NCBI GenBank assembly: GCA_030141605.1
Contig: JAQGDQ010000734.1
Coordinates: 41,540 to 105,539 of the forward strand
DNA: 64,000 bases
Source: Tubiluchus corallicola
Lineage: Eukaryota; Priapulida; Priapulimorpha; Priapulimorphida; Tubiluchidae
Reading direction: 5' to 3'
Part shown: piece by piece, positions 4,401 through 51,345 of the stretch
Position numbering within the stretch: the first letter of the stretch is position 1
How the letters are laid out: each line of letters starts with the position of its first letter
The notes under the pieces: generated by a model
The model's database searches: none
What the model was told of the DNA's origin: nothing
The model's input: the letters and a program-made list of their open reading frames with translations, nothing else
Made by a program: the position numbers and the translations under genes

Positions 4401-7400
4401 GCTCTGTGTTGCACACCTACATTGTCAGCAGATTAATCAGATTATGTAATCAGATTGCATTAATAATACTGCCATATTTTTTCTGCTATTTAGCAGCTCT
4501 TTAATTTATCAATTTTATGAAGAAGAAAAACGATATACAATTCAAAATACATGATAATATTATGCAATATGTATTCTTTCACAGTACAATGGGTTTTAAT
4601 AAGTAGTTTTATAATAAGTAACTCTGCATGTTATAAAACACTGAAGCATATGTGATACCAAAAATAATTCTTTGCGAACAAAGGTTTTGAAGCTCATTTC
4701 ACGAAAGTTTAGCTCACACTTTTTTCCTCATCACAGTATGCTGCTTAGCTTGTGATGCCATCTTATTACATGTTATTGTCTTGTTACTAAAGTTACTTAA
4801 GAAACACAGTCCATTTATTATCACAAGTAGGCCAGCAAATTAGCCAAGCATCATTATTATAATTAAAGTTTTACTTTGTTTTTACCCTGGCACATTTACC
4901 TGAGATGCTCAAGTGCCTCACCTGTAGAGGTGAGCTGAGTGTGAAACCATGGTTTTGTTTGTCATTATTACCTGAGATGCTCGATTGCCACACCTGTAGA
5001 GGTTGGCTGAGTGTGAAACCGTGGTTTCGTTTCTGTACGTGAATGTGCTGTAGACGTTAGCTGAGTGTGAAATCGTGGTTTTGTTTCTCTACATGAATGT
5101 GCTGTAGACGTTAGCTGAGTGTGAAACCGTGGTTTTGTTTCTGTATGTGAATGTGCTGTAGAAGTTAGCTGAGTGTGAAACCGTGGTTTTGTTTCTGTAT
5201 GTGAATGTGCTGTAGACGTTAGCTGAGTGTGAAACCGTGGTTTTGTTTCTGTATGTTAATGTGCTGTAGACGTTAGCTGAGTGTGAAACCGTGGTTTTGT
5301 TTCTGTATGTGAATGTGCTGTAGGTGTTAGCTGAGTGTGAAACCGTGGTTTTGTTTCTGTATGTGAATGTGCTGTAGACGTTAGCTGAGTGTGAAACCGT
5401 GGTTTTGTTTCTGTATGTTAATGTGCTGTAGACGTTAGCTGAGTGTGAAACCGTGGTTTTGTTTCTGTATGTTAATGTGCTGTAGATGTTAGCTGAGTGT
5501 GAAACCGTGGTTTTGTTTCTGTATGTGAATGTGCTGTAGACGTTAGCTGAGTGTGAACCCGTGGTTTTGTTTCTGTATGTTAATGTGCTGTAGACGTTAG
5601 CTGAGTGTGAAACCGTGGTTTTGTTTCTGTATGTGAATGTGCTGTAGGTGTTAGCTGAGTGTGAAACCGTGGTTTTGTTTCTGTATGTGAATGTGCTGTA
5701 GACGTTAGCTGAGTGTGAAACCGTGGTTTTGTTTCTGTACGTGAATGTGCCGTAGACGTTAGCTGAGTGTGAAACCGTGGTTTTGTTTCTGTATGTTAAT
5801 GTGCCGTAGACGTTAGCTGAGTGTGAAACCGTGGTTTTGTTTCTGTACGTGAATGTGCCGTAGACGTTAGCTGAGTGTGAAACCGTGGTTTTGTCTCTGT
5901 ACATGAATGTGCCGTAGATGTTAGCTGAGTGTGAAACCGTGGTTTTGGTTCTGTATGTTAATGTGCTGTAGACGTTAGCTGAGTGTGAAACCGTGATTTT
6001 GTTTCTGTACGTGAATGTGCCGTAGACGTTAGCTGAGTGTGAAACCGTGGTTTTGTTTCTGTATGTGAATGTGCTGTAGGTGTTAGCTGAGTGTGAAACC
6101 GTGGTTTTGTTTCTGTATGTTAATGTGCCGTAGACGTTAGCTGAGTGTGAAACCGTGGTTTTGTTTCTGTACGTGAATGTGCTGTAGAAGTTAGCTGAGT
6201 GTGAAACCGTGGTTTTGTTTCTGTACGTGAATGTGCTGTAGACGTTAGCTGAGTGTGAAACCGTGGTTTTGTTTCTGTATGTTAATGTGCTGTAGACGTT
6301 AGCTGAGTGTGAAACCATGGTTTTGTTTCTGTATGTGAATGTGCTGTAGACGTTAGCTGAGTGTGAAACCGTGGTTTTGTTTCTGTATGTGAATGTGCTG
6401 TAGACGTTATCTGAGTGTGAACTTGTGGTTTTGTTTCTGTATGTGAATGTGCTGTAGAAGTTAGCTGAGTGTGAAACCGTGGTTTTGTTTCTGTATGTGA
6501 ATGTGCTGTAGACGTTAGCTGAGTGTGAAACCGTGGTTTTGTTTCTGTATGTGAATGTGCTGTAGACGTTAGCTGAGTGTGAAACCGTGGTTTTGTTTCT
6601 GTATGTTAATGTGCTGTAGACGTTAGCTGAGTGTGAAACCGTGGTTTTGTTTCTGTATGTGAATGTGCTGTAGGTGTTAGCTGAGTGTGAAACCGTGGTT
6701 TTGTTTCTGTATGTGAATGTGCTGTAGATGTTAGCTGAGTGTGAAACCGTGGTTTTGTTTCTGTATGTGAATGTGCTGTAGGTGTTAGCTGAGTGTGAAA
6801 CCGTGGTTTTGTTTCTGTATGTGAATGTGCTGTAGGTGTTATCTGAGTGTGAAACCGTGGTTTTGTTTCTGTATGTGAATGTGCTGTAGGTGTTATCTGA
6901 GTGTGAAACCGTGGTTTTGTTTCTGTATGTTAATGTGCTGTAGACGTTAGCTGAGTGTGAAACCGTGGTTTTGTTTCTGTATGTGAATGTGCTGTAGATG
7001 TTAGCTGAGTGTGAAACCGTGGTTTTGTTTCTGTATGTGAATGTGCTGTAGGTGTTAGCTGAGTGTGAAACCGTGGTTTTGTTTCTGTATGTGAATGTGC
7101 TGTAGGTGTTATCTGAGTGTGAAACCGTGGTTTTGTTTCTGTATGTTAATGTGCTGTAGACGTTAGCTGAGTGTGAAACCGTGGTTTTGTTTCTGTATGT
7201 GAATGTGCTGTAGACGTTAGCTGAGTGTGAAACCATGGTTTTGTTTCTGTATGTTAATGTGCTGTAGACGTTAGCTGAGTGTGAAACCGTGGTTTTGTTT
7301 CTGTATGTGAATGTGCTGTAGACGTTATCTGAGTGTGAACCCAGAGTTTTGTTTGTCATTATTTTAGTTTGCCAGCCATTTTATCAATCTATTTTGTTAA

Positions 7401-10400: not shown

Positions 10401-13400
10401 CACCAAACCCCCTCGCCCGGGGGCTTCGGGTTTCCTCTCACTGACCCATAACAGTTCGTAGATAGATATGAATGTTTAAGATTTTTGAATTCTGTTTTGA
10501 AAAGTACTAAAATTGTGTTTTATGCTATGTATACGTGAAAATGTCCTGCACAATCAATTCATTGCATCCAGTAAACTAGGTTTCATTTTACCATAAAATG
10601 CAGCATTTTAATTCAATTTAATGTTGATAGAATGAACAATTAAATTTGCATTATGTCATCATTTCTTGTACGTACTTTCTTATATTCGTTATCCAGGTTT
10701 TCTGATTGTCCCTTCATTGGTTTGGGGCGGGAGGGGGGGGAGAAGAATGTTGTTGTGGGTAACTTGGCACAGTTGTAATTGTTGTCGCTGTTGCCATCGC
10801 TGCTGCTGATGCTGCTTGTTACTGTACAGCCATGTTAGGGTTTCGTCAATATGCTGTAACTTTTGTTTCATTCACCTATCACAGGACCACCCGACCCGCC
10901 CACCGATGTTGAACTGAAGGAGTGTTTAGACCACACGGCTGATATCACCTGGGAGCCGGGCAGCGATAACGACTCGCCTATCAAAAATTTCATGATTCAA
11001 CACAACACGGCCTGGGAACCGGACAACTGGATTGACGTCACTACCAAAGTACCGAGTGACGGTACGTTGAACTTTTTCTGTTTATATGCTTAATTATTGC
11101 CCATCTAATCTTTAGCTTTCTTGTTGGCTTGATAGTCTTAAAGGAAAGGAGAAGCCGTTTATCTTGTTGGGTTTATTTTGCACTTGTCACTTAAACTTAG
11201 AAAAATATAACAAACAAATTTGGAAAAAAACTGTCTATAAAGCATGAAGTTAATTTATACTGCGGCTATATGGAAATGTTGAGGTGCAGTGATAGTTGAT
11301 GTTCACTTGAAAATTATGCTGTAACTGATGAATTTCGTGAGTTTTTGTAAGCACATCGTGGCTTTCTGTAAGCTGCGCGCTGCTGTAACTGATGGATTTC
11401 GAGAGTTTTTGTAAGCACATCGTGGCTTACTATAAGCTGCGCGCTGCTGTAACTGATGGATTTCGTGAGTTTTTGTAAGCACATCGTGACTTTCTGTAAG
11501 CTGCGCGCTGCTGTAACTGATGAATTTCACGATTTTTTGTAAGCACATTGTGGCTTTCCGTAAGCTGCGTATGGCTGTAATTGATGGATTTTGTGATTTT
11601 TTGTAAGCACATCGTGGCTTACTATAAGCTGCGCGCTGCTGTAACTGATGGATTTCGTGAGTTTTTGTAAGCACATCGTGACTTTCTGTAAGCTGCGCGC
11701 TGCTGTAACTGATGAATTTCACGATTTTTTGTAAGCACATTGTGGCTTTCCGTAAGCTGCGTATGGCTGTAATTGATGGATTTTGTGATTTTTTGTAAGC
11801 ACATCGTGGCTTACTATAAGCTGCGCGCTGCTGTAACTGATGGATTTCGTGAGTTTTTGTAAGCACATCGTGACTTTCTGTAAGCTGCGCGCTGCTGTAA
11901 CTGATGAATTTCACGATTTTTTGTAAGCACATTGTGGCTTTCCTTAAGCTGCGTATGGCTGTAATTGATGGATTTTGTGATTTTTTGTAAGCACATCGTG
12001 GCTTACTATAAGCTGCGCGCTGCTGTAACTGATGGATTTCGTGAGTTTTTGTAAGCACATCGTGACTTTCTGTAAGCTGCGCGCTGCTGTAACTGATGAA
12101 TTTCACGATTTTTTGTAAGCACATTGTGGCTTTCCTTAAGCTGCGTATGGCTGTAATTGATGGATTTTGTGATTTTTTGTAAGCACATCGTGGCTGTCTG
12201 TAAGCTGTGTGCTTACCTCCTAATTAGTTCACAATTGCCAATGCATAAGAAATGAATTCACGAAGTAGAAAAGGATTAGGATTAGGGTTAGGGTTAGGGT
12301 GGGTTAGGATTAGAGTATTTGAATTGTGTAGGGAATTGTAAACAAGTTCAGATTTTTTTGTTTCACTCGGCTTGTTAAATGCAGATCAAATGTTCATTTA
12401 CTTATTTGCTTGTGTTTTTTGTTAATCAGATGAATTTGAAGTTTTTTGTAGAAAAATGACAAAACTCTTAGGCCTCAAGAATTTGTTGGATGACTTGCTG
12501 ACATCAATATTAGTTGTAAAGAAAAATTATGAAAAATTTATCAAATAAATTGTTGAAATAAAACACATGAGCACATTTTCGATATCAAACATTTTTCAGC
12601 TCGGGAATTTCGAGTGGATCTTTCACCTTGGGCACAATATACATTCCGCATCATTGCACGAAATGAGATTGGCAACAGTGATCCAAGCGACGTAACAGAC
12701 ATCTGTGCCACGCCCGCTGCACGCCCGTCCAAGAATCCGGACAATGTGCGTGGCAATGGAACTACTCCAAACAATCTTGTGATTAGCTGGGATGTACGTA
12801 GAACTTAATTTTTCTTATTAAAAATTTGGCAAATTTAAACGTTTTCATAATAATACAATTTGCTGATGCGAACTGATTTTATTTGTCGTTTTACCGGATG
12901 TTTTTGTCTGAATTACTTCTATATTTTAGCTTAAAATTAAATCTTATTTTTTATTGTTGTTTCCTTTCTCGTTAATGGTTTTTAGTGTTATGTTTTCATT
13001 TATTTATTTTATTCATAAATTAATCAATAACGATCCGGTTTCAAATCCCGAGATCTGGTAATTTTAGTGGATCTCAATCCGATCATGATCCGGCAGAAAT
13101 GTTTGTTCGATTTTCGCTGTTTGTATTTCTGTAAAGTGATTGTGAAAATAGCTAGTCTTGGTAGGAAAAAAATACACAACAGTTTCATCAGACTTGATTT
13201 TTTTAATAATTTGAAAGATTTCTTTTAAAATCCTCCATAATTTATGAAGATATCGCTTAGTTTTATGCTGCCGTGATTGTAATGCACGCAATTGTCGTTG
13301 TGAACGACCGAAAATCATAAAAAATACATTTAATTTGCAATTATATTAATAACCTGTAAAACAGCTATTACTGTAGTAGATACGGCTTCTATCTATCTGT

Positions 13401-16400
13401 TACCTATTCTAAAAATGTGTTTAACCTAATAGTGAACGGTTGCTCTAGTTTTGCTATATTCTCTACTACCAGTTGGCTTTTACAACACATTATGTGCAGA
13501 CATCATTTTACCTGTAAGCTGTGGAATTTCTGTCCAATTTCTGTGGAAACTTCTGTATCAATAAACGTTTAAAGTATATTCTACTGTTATACCTTTTGTC
13601 AACACGACAGCAATACCAGCAATCTTCACACTGTGGTTTCTTGCTGAAAATAGCACGCAAAGATAGCGCTATTGCCGCAAAAACATCTGGTAAAAATTTA
13701 GAGCCATCTACTTCCATTAAAAGTATGTTTCATTGTTTTTGGTTTACACTCAACAAAAAGAGACGATACTATATGTGGCATATGTAATAAATGTTCAGAT
13801 CAAGTGTTCAGAATTTCAGCACAGCAAAATTTCCCAGTGACCCTGAAAACGAACATCATTTACATTAAACTGTAGGCTCGGAACCGGATCCGGATCCATC
13901 ACATACTGGTACGGATCCCATCCGAGCCGGCAAAAAATATGCTTTGTTTTAGTGTTTAAAATGTTGCCAGTTGTGACATCATTAACATCCATGTTTGATT
14001 CTTTCGTAGTTTAAAGAAATTTTATGACTTTGACGTTTCTGTTTGTTTCGTTTGAAGGAGATGGAAATGTTGGAGCAGAATGGACCTGGATTCTTCTACC
14101 AGGTGGAGTACAAGCCGCACGGTGCCGGCGACGATGAATGGGTCACAGTCAACATCACTGACCCAAAGAATACCTCAATAATGGTGCATCCAACGGACAC
14201 GTATCAACCGTACGACATCCGTGTTGAGGCTCACAACGACATGGGTTCCGCCATCGTGCCTGCGGTGGAGATGGTTGGCTATTCGGGTGAAGACAGTAAG
14301 TAAACAGCTGAAAATATTCAATCCACATACTGATACCCCTGTGTGCTTTTAGCCTCACATACCCCTGTGTGCTTTTAGCCTCACATACCCCTGTGTGTAC
14401 TTGTTAGTAGTTTTCCTGATCACTTGCTTCATTGTACTTCGTTGCTTTTGCTTACGTGATTTTTAAAATACATTTCCAAATCAGATCTTCGCAGCTGCAG
14501 ATGAAACACGGTAGGATTTTTCTAATATTTTTCTGTACAGTCTTAATTATTTGACAACTGAATTTATCTCTTATGTGTCTGGTGGACAGCATTTAAGCTG
14601 ATAATACACCTCGAGTATTTGCAGTGTTCCCTTACTTATCGCGGGTGTTCCGTTGCAGGCCCACCCGCGATAAGTGAATTTCCGCGAAGTAGGGACTAAT
14701 TTTAGTAGTCTCACGTCGGTTAGTAGCATCTCAAGCGGGCGCAAGTACTACATTTCGTTTTTGGTGTGTGTTCATCCGCCGAATAAATACACTATTTACT
14801 ATACATAGTAATTTTTTATGATTTATAATATTCTTTTAATGTTAGAATTAATATTTTTAATATATTTTTATACATTTTGTGATTTCTTGTGCAAAGTCAT
14901 CAAATCTATACATTACTGTACAATAAGAATTACGCATGTGCAAAATCATAATTGTAAGTTGACCTAAAACGACAACAAAAATCAGGAGGAGGATGAAAGG
15001 AACATGTAAGATAGACTGAAATGAAAAGGCAAGAGAAAGCAGGATCAATTCAGTTATCCAGGGGAACTTGGTTAGTTATGTTAGTTTTTATTCGAATATA
15101 AAAAAATTCAAAGTGAATTGGCCGACTTGGCCTAGACTTCATTTTTGCTGTTTCATTATTATAGACCTGTTTATTTAATTTATTTCCTAAATGCGATAAA
15201 TAATATATTGTTACTTACGTTACAGTCAAAATGTTACAACTACAAAACAGAACAGAAATTAAAGTTTCACTAAATATTGAGAATCGGCACAGGCCAAGAA
15301 GGTAGACTTGTTCAGGCCTTAGGAGAGGCAAAATGGAGAGACATAGATGGGTGAAAATAAAGTAATCGGGGCGAATGAAATGCCAGTATGATTGTAAGAG
15401 TAATGATAATGACAAGTGAATGAGATGATTATGAAAATGAAGATTAGATTTCACATGAAAATATAGGCCCAAAGAGAAGTAGATCAATCAGCCTGCTCAT
15501 AAATTGCTACTATGATGTAAAACAGTCGTGTGTATAGATTTTAGGAACCAGTTTTTTGCCTTGGTACAAAATATTTTAAGTTAGCTGCAGAGCTTTTGTC
15601 ACATTTATTTTATTGATGTTTATTTTTTGGTTTGTTTACTGCACCAAACATTTTTGTTTTCAGAATCCAATTACATTTCTGTGCCATCTCCACTACCTTC
15701 TCCATCGTCTACAACTCCATCGCCGTCAACAGTACCTCCACCATCTATTCCCGTGCGGAGTAACTTTTCAACTCATTCATCACGTAACCTTTCCCTGTCT
15801 GCCGTTCCTGACATCATCACCTCAATGTCGGACAGCCTCGCTACCATATCCAGTACACTGTCCACCATGTCGGACACCATTTCCTTCATGTCCAATGTCC
15901 TGTTGGACAAACCGGAAGCGGCATCCGCCGTGTCCGAGTCAATCTCTGCTATGTTGCCATCCATCTCGGCAATGTCGGACACCATTGTTACCATGACTGA
16001 CACTCTTTCTGCCGTATCTGATACAGTGTCTACCCAATCACCGGTTAACTGTACACAAAGTGTGGATACGATGTCTTCTGCTTCCGACGTAGCTGAATCC
16101 GAGTCCGCTTCCCAGAATACAGTGTTAGATGAGACATCAAAGACGACGGATTTTGTATTTCCATTATCTGCATTCAGCACGGAAACGATTGTAGATTCTT
16201 ACCTACCAAATAATCTAAGCAGAGATCCTAATGTCGACCCTTTCATTTTGCTTTCGAATGAGTCGTCTGTTGATGTTTCTCCACCGTCTTCAAAAACTTT
16301 GAACGTCTCTGACAAATCATCCACTTTTATTAACCTGAATTCTTCAGCAGTTGCTGACATGTTCATTTCGAAAACGGAACGATTGCCAGTCGAGGAAATA

Positions 16401-19400
16401 AACTTGCTTGTGGAGGCTGCAAGCTTGCCTCCTCTCAGTACTAATTCTTTTGCTATTACCGAAAGCTCATCAGCCCAGGTTTTGAGTTCTCCTGGAAATC
16501 AATTAAACCGTTCATCACTCAACACGCCACGCTCTTCTGCTAAGATTGCACACTCGCCTGCAAAGAGTGCAAGCTTATCTACTACATCTGAAAACGTACC
16601 CGTGCAATCTGCTGATGCATTTACTAAGACTGTAGGTGCATCTGCTGACATGCCATCTGAACCTGCAAGATTACCAGGTGAGGTTGCAGATGCATTTGTG
16701 AAGAATGCAATCACATCTGTCCAGACTCCTATTTTATTTACGGAAACAGTAGATGCATCGTCTACTGATTCCGCAATCTTGTCTCGGACGAACTTTGGCA
16801 CATCTGACAGTGCGTCTAGGACATCTACAAAAACTATGGAGAAGTCTTCAAGATTATCCTCGGACACTGTCCAATCAAGTCCATCATATTTAGAATACAT
16901 TGCAAGTGCAACGTCTCAGCAAGCTGCTGTTGCAGTAGCTAATGCTATGAAGTTGTCCCAGCACCTTGGTGATTCAGTCGATGTTCCAACTGAAGATGTT
17001 GTTGAGCCTGCTAACACATCTCACTCTGTTTCTGAAGACCTTTCTTTGCTCACCTCCAGAGCTATTGACATGCGACAGAACTTCTCTAATGTACTGGTGA
17101 CCCTGAATGCAATATCTGAAGCGCAGGAAATGATGTCTCAACCAAACTCTTTTGTCCCCGACGTTCTAGCCATGATGGCCTCGGTCCTTTACTTGATATC
17201 GGAGACGTTTCCAGTTATGTCAGAGATAATTTCAGTGCTGCCAGAAACTGCCTTTACGGAGCCGGCTTCAGATTCCATGACTCCGACCGTTGTGGCTATG
17301 TCTGACACCATGTCCGTAATATCTGACACCCTCTCTGTGATGTCTAATACACTCGAAGCGATGATTGTGGAAAATTTTACCGATTTGGTCGTCAATGCCA
17401 CGTTGGACGACATTGATCCAGTCATGTCAGATGTGAATTCAACATTGCAAGACATCGTTTCTAGGATCAAAGATGTCAGTTTTTCAATTCGGACAATGAA
17501 CAAAACAAAACCGAATTATGGCCCAAATAACGAAACCAAATCAACTTTCCAACTGATTAATGAAACAAAGTTAAATTATGAAGTAAATAACAACACCAAG
17601 CTTAAGTACGGTCTGATTAACGAAACCAAGCTAATGCATGAACTAAACAATGAAACCGAACTAAAATATGAACTGAATAATGAAAGCGAAGTGAATATTG
17701 AAAGCGAACTAAAATACGAACTGAATAATGAAACCAAATCAGAATACAGACTGAATAACGAAACCAAATCAGAATACAGACTGAATAATGAAACCGACTC
17801 ATATGATGAAATGGAAACACTAGATACTAATTCGTCGTCTTTGGATCTCAATTCGTCAACATTAGACGGTATTTTTGACGTCAAGCCAGAAGCTGACCTG
17901 TCTAATGCAACTTCGCCTCTTCTCTTTAATTTCTGGATTATACTCGAATTCGGCAATGGTACCAGACCATTTGGAAGTACATAATGGTTCTTTCCTTCCT
18001 TTTTCATAATTGATTGAACGTTATTTTACTCGTTTTTAGTTCCGTGTTATTGACAATTTTGATTTGTACATTTTTGGAATTTTTGTACCTTTTTTAATTT
18101 TGTTGATTTTTTTGTTAATTAAGAGCTTAGGATTGAGGAAGTCATCAGCTTTTGAGATGAGTGCATTCGTTCTTTCCCGTCGGTTTGTTCCTTTTTAGAA
18201 TCAGAAAAATTATAATTTTCTTATTAGGATTTGTGCAATAAATTATTAGTTTATCAGTTTTTGATTTTTCTACTGGCTACTGCTGTCCACCTCCACCATC
18301 ACGAGTACCACCATTTACATCAATATCAGCTTTATCACGTCATTTCAAAAATAGTTTTGTTTTGTATGAAATAATTTAAACATTTTGCAAAATATAAAGT
18401 AGAAAAGTCGTATAACAATACGTCATTGCTCATTCAGTAATAACAACAACATTTTCTGCAAGTCTCGTCCATGTTTTTGGCTTTACACGTTTTGTGGTCA
18501 CTTTTTGGTCAACAGAGGACAGCACCACTGTTTATTTTCAGTAGCCTGATTCATGAAGTGTGCCTGCTATGTGCTGGTATTATTGCTACTAGTGAACTCG
18601 TCAGTTAATTTGCATATTAAGCATGACAGTATAGAGATGTGGTTCAGGCAGTGAAGTGATGGAGCGGTTTCTTTTATTCATTGACTGTCAGGATCATCTG
18701 CTTCCTCTGCTTCCTCGTTTTCTCTTCACTTAAAATATTAAATTACGTTGTTGTTGTTGTTACTTGTTTGTTTTACTAAACCTATTTCAAATTGAGAATT
18801 TTGAGTATTATTTCTTTGTTAATGTTGCCTTAATGATGCTTGTTAGTACAACCACTATGTTGCGCACTTAGTTTAATTACAACAGTATAATTCACTGAAA
18901 TCGTGTCATTAATGCTTTTTTTCTCAAACATTTACAGTTATGACATGTTTGAAGTTACTGTTGTTCATTCAATTATTCAGCCGACATATGTAGTATCCAT
19001 GCTTTTCCAGAGCCGGAAGTAATCCCACAGGAATTCCAGGTGGCACGCGTGTTAGGTCCTCGCGAGGCAGAGTTTGCCTGGAAAAAAGTAGAAAATGACG
19101 TTAGCAAAATTAAGGGAGCTTTTGTCGGATACAAGGTAGGTTATAGTTTTTGTTTTTGACAGCTATTAGTTCTAGTGGTGAGTTCACATGTTTTGTTCCT
19201 TTGTTTCTTTTCTACTGTCTAATACTCTGATTATTTTTTCAAACTTTACACAATGTTATCTAAACTTGTTTCAAATGAGTTGTCATCAAAATAGCTGCGT
19301 CTAACGGTCATCGCGGAAGGTTAAATATACATGTCTTATACAGCGTTATCGCCGACGCAAGTCTGGCAAAATGCAAAATGCAGTATGTAAGTGGTATAAA

Positions 19401-31500: not shown

Positions 31501-34500
31501 ATAAAAAGGGTAGCTGAACGTTATAAAGAGGTTTCGTTATTATGCCACTTTGAAAGCTTGCATTTCCCAATGATGTAATGTATTATTGAAAGCTCATACT
31601 TCACTGCAATGTTTGCACTTTCTAATAATACATTATTGAACATTATTAGCACATTGGCTTGGTGCATTAGACGTGCGCATATCCTATCTGTATGCTGTCT
31701 TTATTTATAGGTGCTTTGTGCTGCTTTACTTAAAAATTGTGTAGAAAATTTTTTGTGAATATTTTCCATCGACGTTAAATTTTAAAATTCGTAATTTGTA
31801 AACAATTATAATAAGCACTGCATAAGTTTAATGGAAAAACGTTAAGATTTGTTTATTGCTCGTTATAAATGATTACTGTAATTAGTTACAACTTGTATTA
31901 AGTTAAAAAATGCTTCTGTAACTGCACTGTTCGTTCGTTATGAGTGTCATTTTGAACGTGCTAAATATTGTTGATTAGTTGATCAAATTTTACTGATTAA
32001 ATTTTAGGGGAGTTTCATCTGACCTGTTTTTTTTCTTCTGCATTTTAGCTCCTTCTGATGGTTCAGATTTCACGACGGCCGGATGGTTTATTGGAATGAT
32101 GATCGCCATAGTGATTCTCATCCTCATCCTCATCATCATCTGCTTGATCAGAAGAAATCGTGGTGGCAAGTACCCAGGTAAACGCCTGCGTTCACACCCG
32201 TCATTGTAAACTTTAATCTACGACTTTTCCAACTTAAGTCGGTATTTACTAGAAAAGGTTTTCCAGTGGATTGCTAATCCCTGATTCATTCTAAAACTGG
32301 ATAGATAAAATTAATATTTTGTGGAGTAAATGGTACTGGTATTCCCCTGGAAGAATCCCTTAAGAATAATAGATTCAATATCAGTCAAGGGGAGGCAGAG
32401 CGATTTCATCTCGAGGCAGAATAATGCCCAATTTGTTATGAGCCATCGGCCAAGTGCGGCATTGATCTCTCGTATTTTGATGTATTAAATCTCTTGAAAC
32501 TAAATTAAAAATGATTTGTGATATCAGAAATACAGTTATGAACCTATCTGAGCTTCACTAAAGCAATACTAAGTTGAAACAACGAGGTTAATGAGGAAGT
32601 CAAATCATATGTATGCGACTCATTAAGTTTAATTATTGCAAAAACATTTTGCATGTTTCACAGTTAAGCAGGTAGATGCTATTTTGAACAGACTTGCTTG
32701 CAAACGTTTTCTAGTTTGCTATTATTAGTGTCCAAGGCAATACTGACCGACGGAGTTACTATAGTAATGATAATAAAGTATTTATGTAGTTCATCGCATC
32801 GCGTAATCTAGATGCACTTTACCAATTAAAAGTTAGTTATAACTTAAAATTACATGTGCTGTCATTATAAAATTAATCATTCACAAAACCATACTAATTG
32901 TAATTGTAATTGCAGTAAAATTGATTTTAAAAGCAATCATAAAATTGTGACAACATGCTCTACTCTAATGTACAGATAAGGCTGAGGATAGTGCTGCCTA
33001 AATAGGTGTGCTTTAAGTGCTTTTAAACATTTTGTAATGTTGGCAGTTGACGCAAATTACTCCACAATCGTGGAGCAATGGACGCAAAGACACGGTGGCC
33101 CAAACAGACAGTTACGGACCAGTTTAGTAAACTGTTTCATAAACAGCTACTTTCAGTGTGCAGAGACTATTGCTTTGTACTGTGTCACTATTCATTAATG
33201 CTTCTATTGACCTTATTGCAGTTCAAGAGAAGGAAGCAGCTTTGGGAAAGGATCCGGAAAAGGCAGATGAGGACGGTGGATTCCCGGAATATAGCAAGCC
33301 GTAAGTTGGGCGTACTTTGTGGGACTGATAGCTGCTCATGTTAATTTACTACATTAGGCTGTTTCACACTTTTGTGCAATTTTGATTTTGGTGCTTTTTT
33401 GTTCCATTTGTTCTTCTGATTAGTTCTGTAATTTCTAGAACAATAATTAGCCTGACTACCCAGATGCCTCGTCGGCTTTACATAATTAAAAGGTACAATA
33501 AGATCACACAGCTATAAAACTGTTATGTTATACAACTAAAAGCAAATTAAGTCAAACTACCATATTTTACAGAAACAACCAAAATTTATTGATTATGAGC
33601 AACCAAAAGCTGGTGAAAATAATAAAAGTGTTTTATTTGAGGTTTAAATCATGGACGTGATAGAGAATATCTTCCAAAGTTGCTACTACTTTGTTTCATT
33701 ACTTGTTACTCTGGCCCTGCTTTTCTGTTTACCATTCAGGAGATTTTTATTGGTTGTCCTGTCGTTGCTGTGAATCTGATTGGTTGTTTATAATAATAAT
33801 AAATAATTTATTATTGCATAGCAAAATCGTCCATAAGTCGGCAATTAAGTTTTTCTAGTCCGAATTTGCTGATTGTCCATATTACTGATACTAAGCTAAT
33901 TCAGTAAGGGCCATGTATTAGACTCACGATAATGTAGAATGAATTATCTATTGATTTCTAATATATAGCCTAATTATCTCGAAAACTTCTAGTGCGGGCG
34001 ACTCCTATGCAAACTGTCGGTAATTAACTTAAATAATCCTGTATAAATGACTCTACGTTTTTTCTCTACATGCTTAAATACGATACATTTGTTCTGACCA
34101 ATGAGCTTTTATACTATTTTTTCGTCGACTTCGCGTTTGTGCTCTGTAAAATATCTAGAAACAATCTTGTTAAGTACAGCATCGTTACATGGTACTTGGT
34201 CACACCGATGTAATGATGTAAACAACGTGACGGCCCATCAGCTAGCGGTCAGCTCGCGAAACAACGGAGTTTTTAACGGTCTAGGTTTTGTCCGATTCTT
34301 CAGATATCCATAGAAGCGATGTCTGGCAAACTGAGATAAGAGTGCAATTCTAATACTTTTTGCTTGTTTCTTTAATGATTTTTTCTCAAACTGCCATGAA
34401 TTTGATTGGTTGTTTCTGCTATGGCAGTCACTGTGACCTGATTGGTTAATTTTATATTTCAGCGTAACTGACACACCCGAGCAAGGCAAGGGGTCACAGC

Positions 34501-34679
34501 CGTCGTTGAATTCTGACATGAAACCCATGGAGAGCGACACGGATTCGATGGCAGAGTACGGTGATGGCGAGGGTGGCAAATTCAACGAGGACGGGTCTTT
34601 CATCGGCCAGTACGGCGCCGACCAAAAGAAAAAGCTAGTGGACGCTGAGCAGCCATCAGCACTGTCCACGTTCGTGTAA
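577..34679 (+). CDS. Nrg: neuroglian / L1CAM-family cell adhesion molecule, 5'-partial, 21 exons
   Basis: Type I membrane adhesion protein of the L1 family, which binds homophilically through Ig domains and couples membrane to ankyrin-spectrin. Inferred exons: 577-679, 1294-1478, 2881-3018, 3861-4019, 7421-7581, 7989-8109, 8899-9006, 9777-9998, 10885-11061, 12600-12793, 14058-14295, 19011-19135, 19852-20038, 20368-20492, 22548-22728, 23584-23703, 24399-24557, 25795-25836, 32049-32177, 33222-33300, 34463-34679. All junctions are GT-AG and phases join without a break, giving 1055 residues after the split first codon. Order: Ig3, Ig4, Ig5, Ig6, five FNIII, short linker, one membrane span, cytoplasmic tail with SFIGQYG. 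Signal peptide, Ig1 and Ig2 must lie upstream of base 1. The weakest boundaries are the acceptor at 24399 (poor pyrimidine tract) and the choice of 14058, set by spacing between the FNIII Trp and the NGPGF motif. Confidence 0.9.
788..827 (-). repeat. tRNA-Lys-like SINE remnant (A and B boxes)
   Basis: Read on the minus strand from about 845 to 775. The promoter boxes of RNA polymerase III are visible: an A-box-like CAGTTGATCGTAC (839-827) and a consensus B box GGGTTCGAGTCC (799-788), with TCTCTTAAG between, resembling a Lys-CTT anticodon loop. The acceptor stem does not pair, so this is not a working tRNA gene but a tRNA-derived SINE or pseudogene. Confidence 0.45.
1048..1137. repeat. 36-bp near-perfect inverted repeat (hairpin)
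   Basis: The left arm 1048-1083 is the reverse complement of 1102-1137 with a single difference, which would be a G-U pair in RNA. The loop is 18 bases and AT-rich. It lies in the intron between the two Ig3 exons. It could be a palindromic mini-transposon or, if transcribed with Nrg, a stable stem-loop RNA. Confidence 0.85.
1484..2360 (+). repeat. dispersed repeat family, copy A (array expanded)
   Basis: Left flank (AAACTGTCTGTAAAACATAA) matches 11.2 kb and right flank (GTGTTCAAGCATGAAATGAT, later CATATTTCGGGAACATTGAA) matches 25.4 kb, with the 39-bp array in between. No terminal inverted repeats or coding capacity seen. Confidence 0.7.
1557..2035. repeat. 39-bp minisatellite, about 12 copies
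   Basis: The unit reads CTGACGTAACTGGTGGAGTT plus TATGACTTTTCTGCCTCCG. Because 39 is a multiple of 3, it leaves open frames on both strands (1557-2036 and 2040-1528) which are not genes. It is embedded in a dispersed repeat that resumes at 2036 and also occurs near 11.1 kb and 25.1 kb. Confidence 0.95.
2881..4019 (+). CDS. Nrg: Nrg exons for Ig domain 4
   Basis: Exons 2881-3018 and 3861-4019. They start at APYWVDEP, have the first Cys in SLSIKCEASGNP and the second in DTAVFQCKATNKHG. The usual core Trp is replaced by Phe (YEFFKDG). RNELIIADL and IWTNFYVNV match the E and G strands of L1 Ig4. Both introns are phase 1. I see nothing recognisable in the intron 3019-3860. Confidence 0.88.
4895..7345. 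repeat. 54-bp minisatellite, about 43 copies
   Basis: The unit starts GTGTGAAACCGTGGTTTTGT and ends GCTGTAGACGTTAGCTGA. Copies differ at a few fixed positions (TATGTG/TATGTT/TACGTG; GACGTT/GGTGTT/GAAGTT). Two diverged units with extra sequence form the left edge at about 4895-5040. The period of 18 codons produces a 756-codon minus-strand frame that is not a gene. It fills most of the intron before the Ig5 exon. The intron part 4020-4890 shows nothing else. Confidence 0.97.
7421..8109 (+). CDS. Nrg: Nrg exons for Ig domain 5
   Basis: Exons 7421-7581 and 7989-8109. PPKWMKKP opens the domain, with Cys in GELHCETFGMP, Trp in KVVWFKDKK, and DRGNYLCNASNTFGS at the F strand. NASN and ENSS are possible N-glycosylation sites. 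Exon 7421 follows the 2.4-kb, 54-bp minisatellite after only about 75 bases, so its branch site and pyrimidine tract lie in the short non-repetitive strip 7350-7420. Confidence 0.88.
7677..7705. repeat. (TCTG)n microsatellite
   Basis: A short CTGT/TCTG run in the intron between the Ig5 exons. The remainder of that intron shows nothing recognisable. Confidence 0.8.
8280..8575. repeat. CATT-rich tetranucleotide array
   Basis: Imperfect (CATT)n/(TTTA)n with a higher-order repeat containing CCATGCATTCATTC. The Ile/Phe/His/Ser-rich translations of this stretch (8190-8667) are repeat artefacts. Confidence 0.95.
8899..9998 (+). CDS. Nrg: Nrg exons for Ig domain 6
   Basis: Exons 8899-9006 and 9777-9998. 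KGENVEFKCSAKGD carries the first Cys, WQKDGKPV the Trp, and YEDRGEYTCTVTT the second Cys. The domain ends in ATAKLSVL, directly before the PPDPPTDV that starts FNIII-1. The intron 9007-9776 holds a 44-bp tandem array and otherwise nothing I recognise. Confidence 0.88.
9064..9412. repeat. 44-bp minisatellite, about 8 copies
   Basis: Units combine TTGACCGGATAGTCCTTTTT and GTTTGACCATTTGATTTTGG plus TAAT, in the intron between the two Ig6 exons. Confidence 0.93.
10165..10450. mobile_element. possible transposon-derived segment
   Basis: A stretch with CAATTGCCTAGGACCTCGCA, GGGACCTCGCGC and later CCCTCGCCCGGGGGC is unlike the AT-rich surroundings and resembles decayed non-autonomous DNA transposon sequence. 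No clear termini or target duplication seen; low certainty. The intron 9999-10884 otherwise shows only G- and T-rich low-complexity runs near 10725-10800. Confidence 0.25.
10885..14295 (+). CDS. Nrg: Nrg exons for FNIII-1 and FNIII-2
   Basis: Exons 10885-11061, 12600-12793 and 14058-14295. FNIII-1: PPDPPTDVELKEC, Trp in ADITWEPGSDND, then LSPWAQYTFRIIARNEIGNSDPS, the conserved Tyr-x-Phe-x-x-x-Ala-x-Asn F strand. FNIII-2: LVISWD, then EQNGPGFFYQVEYKP, a signature of the second FNIII in L1 proteins, and PYDIRVEAHNDMGSA. The last exon ends GYSGED plus one base, the phase-1 branch point where splicing can choose either 15664 (mucin-like end) or 19011 (FNIII-3). Confidence 0.88.
11135..12260 (+). 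repeat. dispersed repeat family, copy B (array expanded)
   Basis: The left part (AAAGGAAAGGAGAAGCCG, AAACTGTCTATAAAGCATGA, TTAATTTATACTGCGGCTAT) matches copy A near 1490 and copy C near 25090. It leads into the 64-bp array, whose unit (GTAACTGATGGATTTCGTGA) is related to the 39-bp unit of copy A. Confidence 0.7.
11320..12200. repeat. 64-bp minisatellite with 192-bp higher-order repeat
   Basis: The basic unit starts GTAAGCACATCGTGGCTTAC and contains CTGTAACTGATGGATTTCG. Three diverged units form a 192-bp super-unit repeated about four times (equivalent points at 11430, 11622, 11814, 12006). Minus-strand open frames here are artefacts of the period. Confidence 0.95.
12268..12316. repeat. interstitial telomere-like TTAGGG tract
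   Basis: GGATTAGGATTAGGGTTAGGG with variants, followed by GTATTTGAATTGTG. A second tract at 62357-62390 has the same preceding GGATTAGG and the same following GTATTT(G/A)AATTGTG, so this is a dispersed repeat that carries the motif, not an isolated telomere scar. Intron 12320-12599 is otherwise unremarkable. Confidence 0.8.
13876..13932. repeat. GGATCC-rich imperfect palindrome
   Basis: GGCTCGGAACCGGATCCGGA on the left and GGATCCCATCCGAGCC on the right are inverted copies. The intron 12794-14057 also has GATCCGG sequences near 13030-13090, so this may be one end of a transposon about 0.9 kb long. Not proven. Confidence 0.4.
14331..14396. repeat. 27-bp tandem repeat, about 2.5 copies
   Basis: Repeats of CATACCCCTGTGTGCTTTTA plus GCCTCA just after the FNIII-2 donor. 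Confidence 0.85.
14622..14946. mobile_element. truncated TA-target MITE (pogo/Tigger-like ends)
   Basis: It starts CAGTGTTCCCTTACTTATCG and shares about 320 bases, inverted, with the full element at 27537-27994, including CTCAAGCGGGCGCAAGTACT and AATTTTTTATGATTTATAAT. The other end is missing. The intron between here and 15663 has nothing else visible. Confidence 0.75.
15664..17984 (+). CDS. Nrg: candidate alternative 3'-terminal exon of Nrg: mucin-like, N-glycan-rich secreted tail (772 aa)
   Basis: The acceptor is TTTTTGTTTTCAG just before 15664. Phase 1 matches the donor at 14295, giving a Lys codon and SNYISVPSPLPSP. The frame runs 772 further codons to TAA at 17982-17984. Composition: first a Pro/Ser/Thr stretch; then many Ser/Thr-rich repeats around MSDT(I/L); then about 15 copies of an Asn-Glu-Thr/Asn-Asn-Glu-Thr unit near 17500-17800, dense in N-glycosylation sequons. 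Only one Cys is seen (PVNCTQ). The end SPLLFNFWIILEF is too short for a membrane span and is followed by a polar tail. Use of this exon would replace FNIII-3 to -5, membrane and cytoplasmic parts by a soluble extension. It resembles in style the mucin-like region of vertebrate neurofascin but sits elsewhere. Expression is not shown by the sequence. Confidence 0.72.
18237..18242 (+). terminator. poly(A) signal for the mucin-like terminal exon
   Basis: AATAAA lies 253 bases after the stop at 17984, followed by T-rich sequence. It supports 15664-18260 being a 3'-terminal exon and not an internal one. The rest of the intron up to 19010 shows nothing I recognise. Confidence 0.5.
19011..20038 (+). 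CDS. Nrg: Nrg exons for FNIII-3
   Basis: Exons 19011-19135 and 19852-20038. The first joins phase 1 from 14295 to read GED-K-PEVIPQEFQV, the usual linker into L1 FNIII-3. Then AEFAWKKV, GAFVGYK, and after the intron IRTWTKDEGK and LKPFSEVHAEIVVYNGVYEGEPS. Intron 19136-19851 contains a (TA)n run. The membrane form skips 15664-17984. Confidence 0.87.
19459..19517. repeat. (TA)n microsatellite
   Basis: About 29 TA dinucleotides in the intron between the FNIII-3 exons. Confidence 0.97.
20085..20240. repeat. tandem repeat of about 47 bp, 3 copies
   Basis: Repeats of AATAGACATACAGAATTGTA plus AAAAACAGACATACAGCCTGGTG (in shorter pieces) directly after the FNIII-3 donor. Confidence 0.85.
20368..22728 (+). 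CDS. Nrg: Nrg exons for FNIII-4
   Basis: Exons 20368-20492 and 22548-22728. PGPVNGLQAYPIGSNSM, Trp in LLEWQKPMEPNG, NLTGYVIVYRTT, then LQADTMYRIMIRAQTKAGPGE. NLT and NGT are possible glycosylation sites. The intron between them is mostly a 44-bp tandem array plus a retroelement 3' end. Confidence 0.88.
20975..22155. repeat. 44-bp minisatellite, about 27 copies
   Basis: The unit reads ATAATTGTTTGCCATCAATT then TAATTTTGATCTATTTTCCT and four C/T bases. Variants with TTATTTTCGATC cluster at 21555-21665. It occupies over half of the intron between the FNIII-4 exons. Confidence 0.97.
22185..22345 (+). mobile_element. probable retroelement 3' end with (TTA)n tail
   Basis: ATGGCAGACTGGATGGCCAT, TTTCGCCATCCTGTCCTCC, then GAAGACAAATAAATTATTAT and further TTA units. 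A short ATTATTATT tail after AAATAAA is a common 3' terminus of non-LTR elements and their SINEs. No target duplication identified. Confidence 0.4.
22832..23271. mobile_element. piggyBac-like MITE, TTAA target
   Basis: The ends are TTAACCCTTTCATTCCCGT and GGGACTGAAAGGGTTAA, an inverted pair flanked by TTAA, the target duplicated by piggyBac transposases. The 440-bp interior is AT-rich and non-coding. It lies in the intron between FNIII-4 and FNIII-5; the rest of that intron, to 23583, shows nothing. Confidence 0.7.
23584..24557 (+). CDS. Nrg: Nrg exons for FNIII-5
   Basis: Exons 23584-23703 and 24399-24557. PLKPVLIAEGHNDTT, Trp in ILLRWEQPDDG, KLYYANYRKV, and LEPGTKYEVQVVAVNDEKEAPS. The acceptor at 24399 lacks a strong pyrimidine tract and follows a run of decayed repeats, but it restores the frame (RKV-G-EEEWERS) expected for the D strand. 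Confidence 0.82.
24005..24385. repeat. decayed tandem repeats around CATTGTTTATGAA
   Basis: CATTGTTT(A/G)T(G/A)(A/G)ATGAACATTG recurs about seven times with TTATATAA-type spacers, with irregular spacing of 50-70 bases, ending next to the acceptor at 24399. Confidence 0.65.
24988..25086. repeat. tandem duplication of about 48 bp
   Basis: CCAGTGATTATTATTACC and CTCTTTGCTTTGTCTACCTC occur twice in a row. Confidence 0.85.
25089..25560 (+). repeat. dispersed repeat family, copy C (no array)
   Basis: It starts AAAGGAAAGGACAAGCCACT like copy B, has a single GGTAACTGGTGGTTTTCGAC where the other copies have arrays, and ends like copy A (TGAAATGATCGCGACTTTAA, CACTTTTATTGCCAAATCCT). It lies in the intron before the 25795 microexon. 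Confidence 0.7.
25795..25836 (+). CDS. Nrg: Nrg 42-nt microexon, juxtamembrane linker
   Basis: An acceptor with a long T tract (TTGTTTTTAG) and a GTATCA donor enclose 42 bases, phase 1 at both ends, encoding A-PNLISTIEEGGEE. Both this exon and the transmembrane exon at 32049 start with Ala-Pro, and removing it keeps the frame, so it is probably an optional cassette. The following intron (6.2 kb) is the longest in the gene seen here. Confidence 0.65.
26071..26118. repeat. (GT)n microsatellite
   Basis: Imperfect GT run in the 6.2-kb intron before the transmembrane exon. Confidence 0.9.
26735..27408. repeat. 61-bp minisatellite, about 11 copies
   Basis: Units contain GGGAAACTGAGATCACTTTA and CACTACTGTTAGACGTGATC. 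Alternation of GCTCGTTTGAT and GCTTGTTTGGT variants suggests two-unit duplications. Confidence 0.95.
27537..27994. mobile_element. TA-target MITE, complete (pogo/Tigger-like ends)
   Basis: A 458-bp element with ends CAGTGTTCCCTCGCTACTTC and the inverse GATAAGTGAGGGAACACTG, flanked by TA on both sides. Ends of this kind belong to Tc1/mariner-superfamily elements of the pogo/Tigger type. There is no transposase. A truncated relative lies at 14622-14946. Confidence 0.85.
28083..28124 (+). CDS. candidate second 42-nt cassette microexon of Nrg
   Basis: A strong pyrimidine tract ending TTGTTCCTTTTCCAG precedes 42 bases that are open in the Nrg frame (A-STASSLDPVIVVS) and followed by GTAATA. Length and phase (1 to 1) are identical to the 25795 exon, and the Ser/Thr-rich content suits a juxtamembrane linker. 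No homology to known L1 microexons is claimed. It could be a chance splice-site pair. Confidence 0.35.
28373..28452. repeat. 27-bp tandem repeat, 3 copies
   Basis: Repeats of TTTTTCTTGTTATCATTATG plus GCACA. Confidence 0.85.
28455..28887. mobile_element. TIR element about 430 bp (MITE)
   Basis: GTTCAGACTAGCAAG at the left end and CTGGCTAGTCTGAAC at the right end are inverted copies with one mismatch. Flanks TCATTATT and CATTAATT may be a decayed 8-bp duplication. Inside lies a 41-bp tandem array. Confidence 0.55.
28650..28816. repeat. 41-bp tandem repeat, 4 copies
   Basis: Units AACAACTGCCAGACACTTTG plus CAGTAACTTACCGACAGTAAC inside the TIR element 28455-28887, nearly identical to each other. 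Confidence 0.9.
29546..29743. mobile_element. short MITE, about 195 bp
   Basis: TTAAGGTACATTCACACA at the left and TGTGTGAATGTACCTTTA at the right form 18-bp inverted ends with one mismatch around a short AT-rich core. Superfamily not assignable from this. Confidence 0.65.
29958..30017. repeat. short tandem repeat, 3 copies
   Basis: GTGTGTTGCACACTG-ATATAAC repeated three times with small changes. Confidence 0.8.
30122..30268. repeat. 21-bp minisatellite, 7 copies
   Basis: GAACATATGTATACCTTGCTG repeated; the period keeps short frames open on both strands (not genes). Confidence 0.95.
30835..31165. mobile_element. inverted-repeat element with hammerhead-like ends
   Basis: On the minus strand 30887-30838 reads TTTCAGCTGATGAGGCCC, a GGGC-closed stem and AAATAAATA. 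On the plus strand 31112-31160 reads TTTCAAGTGATGAGGCC with similar downstream order. The left copy has the CUGAUGA box and a GCCC-AUUA-GGGC stem II of a hammerhead ribozyme but UAAA where GAAA is required. Remaining parts of this intron, 31170-32048, show nothing I recognise. Confidence 0.45.
32049..32177 (+). CDS. Nrg: Nrg transmembrane exon
   Basis: The exon encodes PSDGSDFTTAGWF, then a hydrophobic span of about 23 residues (from WFIGMMIAIVILILILIII to CLI), then the stop-transfer RRNRGGKYP. Arginines right after the span and the RGGKY sequence are characteristic of neuroglian proteins. Phase 1 at both ends. Confidence 0.92.
33222..34679 (+). CDS. Nrg: Nrg cytoplasmic-tail exons with FIGQY and C-terminal TFV
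   Basis: Exons 33222-33300 (VQEKEAALGKDPEKADEDGG, then FPEYSKP) and 34463-34679. The last exon has SDTDSMAEYGDGEGGKF, then DGSFIGQYG, the ankyrin-binding motif whose Tyr is phosphoregulated in the family, and ends SALSTFV before TAA. A C-terminal Thr-Phe-Val is a class I PDZ ligand, known from nematode SAX-7. Intron 33301-34462 carries one end of a dispersed TIR repeat near 33820. Confidence 0.92.
33815..33860. repeat. solo end of dispersed TIR repeat
   Basis: GCAAAATCGTCCATAAGTCG and GCAATTAAG match the termini of the element at 37918-38393 in the TRMU gene. Only one end is seen here. Confidence 0.55.
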
Positions 34680-49629: not shown

Positions 49630-51345
49630 ATGGATAATACCAAACCATTGTATAGGAAGCCTAGGCCCACAAAAGTGAAACCGCTCTTACTCGAGATGCA
49701 GGCTGCATTTAAGAAAGCAAATGCTGGTCAGACTATAATAGCAGAGAATGAAATAATAGAACTGGCCGAAATTACTGACCCTTATAATCCAAATGAGCAT
49801 GTACTTATATGTAATCACCAAACAGAACAGGTTACAATATCTCCCCACAAAAGTCTTTCTCCTGGAGAGGACGAATCATCAGCAAATACCGACAAGACAG
49901 AAGAAGCTAAAGTTTTAAAAGAAGGCAACAAACAGTCTACAATTCATGTATATTCTGAGGAAAAGGGAATCCAAGATACAGAAAAAGCAGCAACTTGTCA
50001 AAAAGAAGACACACCCAAAAAAGTGTTTGCAGTCAGACCACTGGAACAGTATGACTATACTGTAATACAGCGTCTACTCGTAGGACCTGAACAGTGGTCT
50101 GTTAGAGAGCAAGTGGAAATGTGTGCACTGATTCTCTCTAGGAGGGCATATGGTAGCATAACAAAGATTCTGGAAGCACGGATAAAAGAAAAACCTTCGG
50201 AGAAAACCCTCTTAAAACCTGTGCAACTTGACTTATCGGGAATTGAACCATTTCAACAGCGAATTCCAAAGTACCAGTACCTTTTAGAAATTGCCTGGTT
50301 AGTGAGAACTTATCTACGCAGAGTAGCTAGTTCGAAGGGCCTGAAGACAGCATTGAAACTGCTACCTAGTGATTCCACATCAGAGAAATTGGAAGTGGAA
50401 TGTAATTTCAACATTCGGAAAGAAGTCATTCGGTCTGTACAACAGACACAAGAGACAATAGGTGTACGGTCCCTAGGGAAATTGACAAGAGAAATTGATG
50501 TAGACGAGGGCATCAGTTCCAGTGAACTTGCTGTGTTGCACAGTCTGGCAAATGACGGTACCCAACTAAACCTAAAAGCCCATTTCATATCAGAGATGCC
50601 AGACATCCAACCAATTGAACAGACATTAACATACCTAAACATATCATACAACAACCTCAAAACCTTGCCAGACTCTATTTCAGCTTGCCGTAACTTACAA
50701 TGCTTGAAGATGCGTAACAATCCAATAGCCAAGATACCAAATTGGATAGAAACACTGGATAATTTACGCACATTCGTTGCATCGTTTTGTGCTCTGACAA
50801 CTCTGCCGATATCATTGTACAAACTCTCTCAGCTTGTGGTCATAGATGTTTCATATAATCACATCACCTCACTGTCGAGTGCCATAAGTAACATGAAAAC
50901 TCTCACCATATTGAATTTGACAGGTAATGAATTACTTGCTCTACCTGCTGGCATCATACAGTTAGAAAATCTCAAACACTTGTATGTAAAGAATAACCTA
51001 ATGCATCCAGACTTCAGATATAGACAAAGGCAAACACCACAACCTCTAAAAGACATAGCTGGCACGAAAATACTTAAGGATAAATTGGACGTTCCACAAA
51101 GCAAGCTACAACTCATCAAACCTTTGAGTGTCTGTGACTGTTGTCAAGGTCCTCTAGTAGGGACAGGGCTTAGAATTATCATGTCCTCTAAGAAAATGTT
51201 TGGGATCAAAGGCATCCCATTTCTATTCCGTAGCTGTTCACCAAGCTGCTTCTCCAAATTTTGCAAACAAACCAAAGAAGAGCTGTCTCAGTACCTGTAC
51301 CAAAGCAAGAAATGTCAGCTACACAAGAGCAGGAAATCCAACTAA
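49630..51345 (+). CDS. intronless leucine-rich-repeat protein with Cys-rich C-terminus, 571 aa
   Basis: A single uninterrupted frame from ATG (context TGACCATGG) to TAA. Residues 1-170 are polar and low-complexity. About 140-300 is helical (DYTVIQRLLVGPEQWSVREQ and EIAWLVRTYLRRVA). About 330-465 holds five or six typical LRRs (LTYLNISYNNLKTLPDSI, NLQCLKMRNNPIAKIPNWI, LVVIDVSYNHITSL, LTILNLTGNELLALPAGI). The tail from about 500 has CDCCQGPLVGTG and FLFRSCSPSCFSKFC, Cys pairs that could bind zinc. I do not recognise the family with certainty; an LRRC63-like protein is a guess. LRRs imply protein binding, and there is no signal peptide or membrane span, so it is probably intracellular. Lack of introns among intron-rich neighbours suggests a retrocopy or intron loss. 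Confidence 0.85.
   Translation: MDNTKPLYRKPRPTKVKPLLLEMQAAFKKANAGQTIIAENEIIELAEITDPYNPNEHVLICNHQTEQVTISPHKSLSPGEDESSANTDKTEEAKVLKEGNKQSTIHVYSEEKGIQDTEKAATCQKEDTPKKVFAVRPLEQYDYTVIQRLLVGPEQWSVREQVEMCALILSRRAYGSITKILEARIKEKPSEKTLLKPVQLDLSGIEPFQQRIPKYQYLLEIAWLVRTYLRRVASSKGLKTALKLLPSDSTSEKLEVECNFNIRKEVIRSVQQTQETIGVRSLGKLTREIDVDEGISSSELAVLHSLANDGTQLNLKAHFISEMPDIQPIEQTLTYLNISYNNLKTLPDSISACRNLQCLKMRNNPIAKIPNWIETLDNLRTFVASFCALTTLPISLYKLSQLVVIDVSYNHITSLSSAISNMKTLTILNLTGNELLALPAGIIQLENLKHLYVKNNLMHPDFRYRQRQTPQPLKDIAGTKILKDKLDVPQSKLQLIKPLSVCDCCQGPLVGTGLRIIMSSKKMFGIKGIPFLFRSCSPSCFSKFCKQTKEELSQYLYQSKKCQLHKSRKSN

Follow-up and report, generated by a model that had tools for sequence, protein, structure and literature searches.

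The final 64 kb of contig C1316 in the 343.5-Mb genome of the priapulid Tubiluchus corallicola, referred to here as the window, carries on its plus strand a neuroglian/L1 gene that starts about 17.5 kb before the window and extends to 34.7 kb within it. The 4.7-kb intron of this gene between the exons for the second and third fibronectin type III domains (FNIII-2 and FNIII-3; 14295 to 18981) contains an open frame of 799 codons on the plus strand (15585-17984), and the segment from 15664 to about 18260 is probably a proximal alternative last exon that would give rise to a secreted neuroglian. The segment is almost certainly a coding exon, as judged from its sequence properties, and is very probably joined to the neuroglian transcript. 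The secreted form is favoured by a match of splice phase, a sharp onset of coding composition, constraint at the protein level, the absence of a membrane anchor in the encoded tail, and a putative poly(A) signal, as well as by the lack of a credible start of the exon's own and by the L1 identity of the gene.

The coding part of the candidate exon (15664..17984, plus strand) comprises 772 codons in addition to the junction codon and the stop codon. Its acceptor AG is located at 15662-15663, the first base of the exon is 15664, the first whole codon is TCC at 15666, and the stop codon occupies 17982-17984. The last common exon before the presumed choice is the FNIII-2 exon (14058..14295, plus strand), which was recognized by its translation and ends with the phase-1 donor GACA/GTAAGT. 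Joining of donor 14295 to acceptor 15664 occurs in phase 1 and creates the junction codon AAA. The junction of FNIII-2 with the first FNIII-3 exon of the transmembrane isoform (18981..19135, plus strand; acceptor phase 1) is likewise in phase 1, both spliced readings are open, and the reading from Ig6 into the candidate exon meets no stop before 17982. When scored with a matrix built from 21 other acceptors of the neuroglian gene, the acceptor of the candidate exon reached an ordinary strength of 7.0 bits, with the gene's other acceptors ranging from -1.5 to 12.7 bits in leave-one-out scoring. A previous examination of the letters alone (the sequence-only reading) had described a consensus phase-1 acceptor with the phase of the FNIII-3 acceptor and 772 codons without a stop; both descriptions were borne out, the latter for the part of the 799-codon frame between acceptor and stop. 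The combined fraction of Ser, Thr, and Pro, taken in 20-codon steps, rose from 0.1 over the four steps that precede the acceptor to 0.75 in the step immediately behind it, which indicates that coding composition starts at the expected exon start.

A chance or repeat-driven origin of the open frame is extremely improbable. In 800 sequences of 4.7 kb that were simulated with the composition of intron or exon, no open frame in any of the six frames exceeded 246 codons. It does speak for such an origin that a minisatellite in an intron yields an open frame of 763 codons (5092-7380, minus strand), showing that long frames in the window can stem from repeats. However, tandem repeats make up only a small share of the candidate exon (15700-15730 and 17622-17795 according to Tandem Repeats Finder, TRF), and its diverged internal repeats differ in a synonymously biased manner in the frame of the exon only. 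This was seen with ten MSDTxSx-type heptads and with eight NETKxxYELN-type units of ten residues, for which the ratio of nonsynonymous to synonymous differences per site (pN/pS) was determined. For the heptads, pN/pS was 0.56 in frame but 1.10 and 1.44 in the two shifted frames; for the ten-residue units, the values were 0.47 in frame and 0.71 and 1.88 in the shifted frames. As the choice of heptads by their motif biases pN toward low values, all consecutive 7-codon units of the first heptad block (block A, see below) were recounted, giving mismatch fractions of 0.51 at the first, 0.30 at the second, and 0.64 at the third codon position. A pS of 0.65 means that synonymous sites are close to saturation and thus that the internal repeats of the exon are old. 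Low-complexity matches to the tail aside, the genome yielded no allelic or paralogous copy of the candidate exon, and a transposon origin was rejected because the tail is otherwise single-copy.

By its domain content and layout, the host gene is a genuine L1-family neuroglian. Pfam identified at least five immunoglobulin (Ig) stretches and five fn3 domains, and for the pair FNIII-1/FNIII-2 the nearest solved structure was that of Drosophila neuroglian (1CFB, E 6.8e-46), with titin and contactins behind. The order of the exons is signal peptide, Ig domains, five FNIII domains, a transmembrane segment at 32.05 kb, and a cytoplasmic part with FIGQY at 34.5 kb. The transmembrane exon (32049..32178, plus strand) has a maximum 19-residue hydropathy of 3.56; the cytoplasmic exon (34463..34679, plus strand) matches Bravo_FIGEY (PF13882, E 4e-25), and its FIGQY ankyrin motif was seen by direct reading. 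Both exons would be missing from the proposed secreted isoform. The first coding exon, encoding the signal peptide MALTRLWTSLVLAIFTIVIVQS, is located upstream of the window (C1316, L006), as are the earliest Ig exons (L006/L007 of the same contig). Exon pieces were seen for Ig1 to Ig6, except for the first half of Ig1, which was not located. The sequence-only reading had assigned Ig1-6, FNIII-1, FNIII-2, and the tail to the product; as a refinement, the exons that encode its signal peptide and the start of its Ig region lie upstream of the window. Long minisatellite arrays are present in many introns of the gene (8.2-8.7 kb, 11306-12223, 20.9-22.3 kb, L006:7500-8150, and L007:620-1981), and a strong GC skew was observed at 5-8 kb, in a minisatellite-bearing part of it.

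The tail encoded by the candidate exon contains 138 Ser, 77 Thr, and 46 Pro residues, 27 N-glycosylation sequons, and a single Cys. It begins directly behind the acceptor with a Pro/Ser/Thr-rich hinge marked by the jump in Ser, Thr, and Pro (amino acids 1-40; 15666..15785, all tail features being on the plus strand), followed by the predicted helical heptad block A (amino acids 44-123; 15795..16034), a long Ser/Thr-rich part, a second predicted helical block B (amino acids 455-602; 17028..17471), and an Asn-Glu-Thr sequon-repeat segment. In block A (about amino acids 40-125), hydrophobicity has a period of 3.5, and none of 2,000 permutations was equally strong. A single-sequence AlphaFold model of the tail placed helices at amino acids 44-81 and 83-123, with predicted local distance difference test (pLDDT) values of 52-67, and predicted no structure for the Ser/Thr-rich middle; the mean pLDDT was 36, and the model is therefore only a hint for the position of helices. 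Block B was assigned from this model and a weak periodicity and includes the heptads MSDTMSV/ISDTLSV/MSNTLEA at amino acids 545-565. The C-terminal segment (17499..17795) consists of a ten-residue repeat with the consensus N-E-T-K-x-x-Y-E-L-N and one sequon per unit, as recognized by TRF, the sequons, and the codon pattern. The tail as a whole contains 27 sequons versus 12.8 expected from its composition, and the sequon is retained across the ten-residue units. This excess suggests that the protein passes through the secretory pathway, for which a signal peptide is present in neuroglian and not in the candidate exon. The content of Ser plus Thr was 16-38% per 100 residues, and the elevation of Pro was confined to approximately the first 30 residues. 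The composition described previously, first rich in Pro/Ser/Thr and then in Asn, Glu, and Thr, agrees with the hinge at the start and the repeats near the C terminus. The term "mucin-tailed" suits the tail only in part, since two predicted helical blocks, one of them clearly heptad-periodic, and the C-terminal N-glycosylation repeat are also present. A tail without membrane anchor had also been proposed, and in fact no transmembrane segment was detected in it (maximum 19-residue hydropathy 1.68 versus 3.56 for the true one of the gene); direct reading of its C terminus (GNGTRPFGST), which is not hydrophobic, revealed no glycosylphosphatidylinositol (GPI) signal. No described domain could be assigned to the tail, the best matches being below the cut-off in Pfam (E 0.074) and low-scoring in PDB (E 0.01), and no relatives were found in viral contigs.

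As the sequence-only reading had noted, the in-frame stop is followed 253 bases on by the putative poly(A) signal AATAAA (18237..18242, plus strand). The putative 3' untranslated region (17985..18260, plus strand) is U-rich: around AATAAA, TTTTT occurred 12 times per 366 bases versus a mean of 3.1 in equal-sized intron slices. TTTNTTT motifs showed no enrichment close to the putative poly(A) site.

Several observations weigh against a secreted last exon. AATAAA is frequent in AT-rich DNA. The relative synonymous codon usage of the candidate exon correlates poorly with that of the other neuroglian exons (0.15) and is closer to that of neighbouring genes (0.82) and of the intron background (0.62). 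Third-position GC is 0.40 in the candidate exon (15666-17981) and 0.55 in the other neuroglian exons, and when a synonymous-codon score was used as a coding test, the true frame did not rank highest, being surpassed by two shifted frames and by one on the reverse strand. A second L1-type gene of the genome has no long open frame between its FNIII-2 and FNIII-3 exons. Finally, the candidate exon itself contains at 16809 a phase-compatible donor (ACA/GTGCGT, phase 1) of 7.7 bits, which is inside the range of the gene's donors.

The last of these observations bears on the use of the segment as an internal cassette, in which the segment would be spliced to FNIII-3 either whole or with only the 382 codons that precede donor 16809. 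The product would be a membrane-anchored protein in which a mucin-like insert separates FNIII-2 from FNIII-3, similar to the PAT/mucin segment of neurofascin, and L1 proteins with internal mucin-like segments are known (PMC8716720). However, donors as strong as 16809 occur in the candidate exon at chance level, the frame runs on for about 390 codons past this site, through repeats under constraint, before it ends in a stop with AATAAA behind it, and near the end of the frame there is no strong phase-compatible donor, the best one being 17868 with 5.3 bits. We therefore consider a cassette unlikely. The earlier proposal of an alternative last exon for a secreted protein is supported in part: phase, constraint, the putative poly(A) signal, and the L1 gene speak for it, and it is to be qualified by this possible cassette.

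The deviating codon usage would also suit an independent gene that is nested in the neuroglian intron and has a promoter and first exon of its own, and at 14818-14953 an ATG is followed by a hydrophobic leader and a good phase-1 donor. However, the frame of the candidate exon has no ATG before codon 54, and in a scan for single first exons in 14296-15655 with phase-1 donors of at least 3 bits, three donors end in T and would thus create the junction codon TAA with 15664. The first exon at 14818-14953, although only 0.7% of 300 shuffles were as good, was rejected for this reason. The sole surviving first exon, encoding MKH (14501-14510), lacks a signal peptide and would be ill-suited to a sequon-repeat protein, making a nested gene quite unlikely.

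Codon usage near background and the lack of the exon in the second L1-type gene could alternatively reflect a relic, that is, an exon once in use whose splicing was lost and whose frame stayed open by luck. This is very unlikely in view of 772 codons without stop or frameshift and an intact acceptor, stop, and poly(A) signal, as neutral sequence of like composition stayed open for at most about 250 codons in simulations. The second L1-type gene (approximately C2055:210,600-237,550, L012-L014) has Ig, FNIII, and transmembrane exons and shares 63% and 52% identity with neuroglian in two FNIII-1/2 exons. It has the same FNIII-2 donor phase and a distance between FNIII-2 and FNIII-3 of only about 0.65 kb. 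The presence of the exon in only one of the two L1 genes implies that it was gained in, or lost from, one of them. The transmembrane and last-exon pieces of the paralogue, ending with PPPPLPAEEPNESGFDTFV, gave no FIGEY match in Pfam, no FIGQY-like motif was found in L014, and the paralogue may have lost ankyrin binding. In the window, the neuroglian gene is accompanied by a leucine-rich repeat (LRR) protein gene (49630-51341, plus strand) and a gene whose product carries the nischarin C-terminal PH domain (51928-55362, minus strand); exons at about 39-45 kb on the minus strand resemble tRNA 2-thiouridylase (MnmA/TRMU), as judged by eye only.

According to the secreted last-exon reading, donor 14295 would be spliced to 15664 and the transcript cleaved past AATAAA at 18237. 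The resulting mRNA would encode the signal peptide, Ig1-6, FNIII-1, FNIII-2, and a tail of 773 residues, and would lack FNIII-3 to -5 as well as the anchor in the membrane and the tail that binds ankyrin. With a signal peptide encoded by the upstream exon and no membrane anchor, this protein would be expected to be secreted. The two helical blocks would most likely associate and thereby display several ectodomains together, and the Ser/Thr-rich and sequon-repeat parts would most likely form an extended glycosylated shield. The soluble product would then most likely serve L1-type adhesion as a ligand or competitor, possibly a multivalent one, that works remotely or within the matrix. More tentatively, we propose a secreted, multimeric Ig/FNIII ligand whose 773-residue tail carries its own oligomerizing helical blocks and an N-glycan comb and which would have no known counterpart.

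Release of L1-family proteins is best known to occur by proteolysis. If the proposal is correct, a dedicated secreted terminal exon would make L1 release a genetic programme under splicing control, and the secreted form could be separated from the anchored form through deletion of one exon. It would also mean that a large new extracellular domain arose within an evolutionarily old and conserved gene, from one of its introns, and did so in just one of two L1 paralogues.

Secreted N-CAM, an Ig/FNIII adhesion protein, results from an inserted SEC exon with an in-frame stop; it belongs to a different family, and its SEC exon adds a short tail only. Leech tractin, an L1 protein of an invertebrate, has an additional low-complexity segment in its extracellular part and is processed extracellularly, but its repeats are internal, membrane-proximal, Pro/Gly-rich, and collagen-like and are part of a transmembrane protein. 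Neurofascin, also of the L1 family, has a Pro/Ala/Thr-rich (PAT/mucin-like) segment prone to O-glycosylation (PMC8716720), which is internal and again situated in a transmembrane protein. In Drosophila nrg, ELAV determines whether the proximal or the distal last exon is used by causing the proximal poly(A) site to be bypassed (PMC8055025), and Nrg167 and Nrg180 share their extracellular and transmembrane parts unchanged, so that only their cytoplasmic ends differ (PMC2346466). The choice between the candidate exon and FNIII-3 would be a similar poly(A)-site/splice choice in the same family, but its position within the ectodomain would cost the protein its anchor. Soluble L1CAM is formed with NOVA2 by skipping of the transmembrane exon (L1-deltaTM; PMC6398979); here, too, splicing releases an L1 ectodomain, but by exon skipping, with neither a terminal exon nor a new tail. 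The soluble VEGFR-1 variant sFlt1-14 arises by intronic splicing and polyadenylation and consists of an ectodomain with a Ser-rich 28-residue tail (PMC5983705). This receptor is unrelated, and its short low-complexity tail contrasts with 773 residues containing predicted helices and sequon repeats. In line with the earlier statement that no described L1 protein is known to have such an architecture, the literature open to the search, largely without subscription papers, yielded no L1 protein that has a terminal exon dedicated to secretion or a comparable tail. Soluble isoforms of adhesion proteins formed by an alternative terminal exon are thus already known, and what is unusual in the present case is the family, the position of the exon, and the size of the tail.

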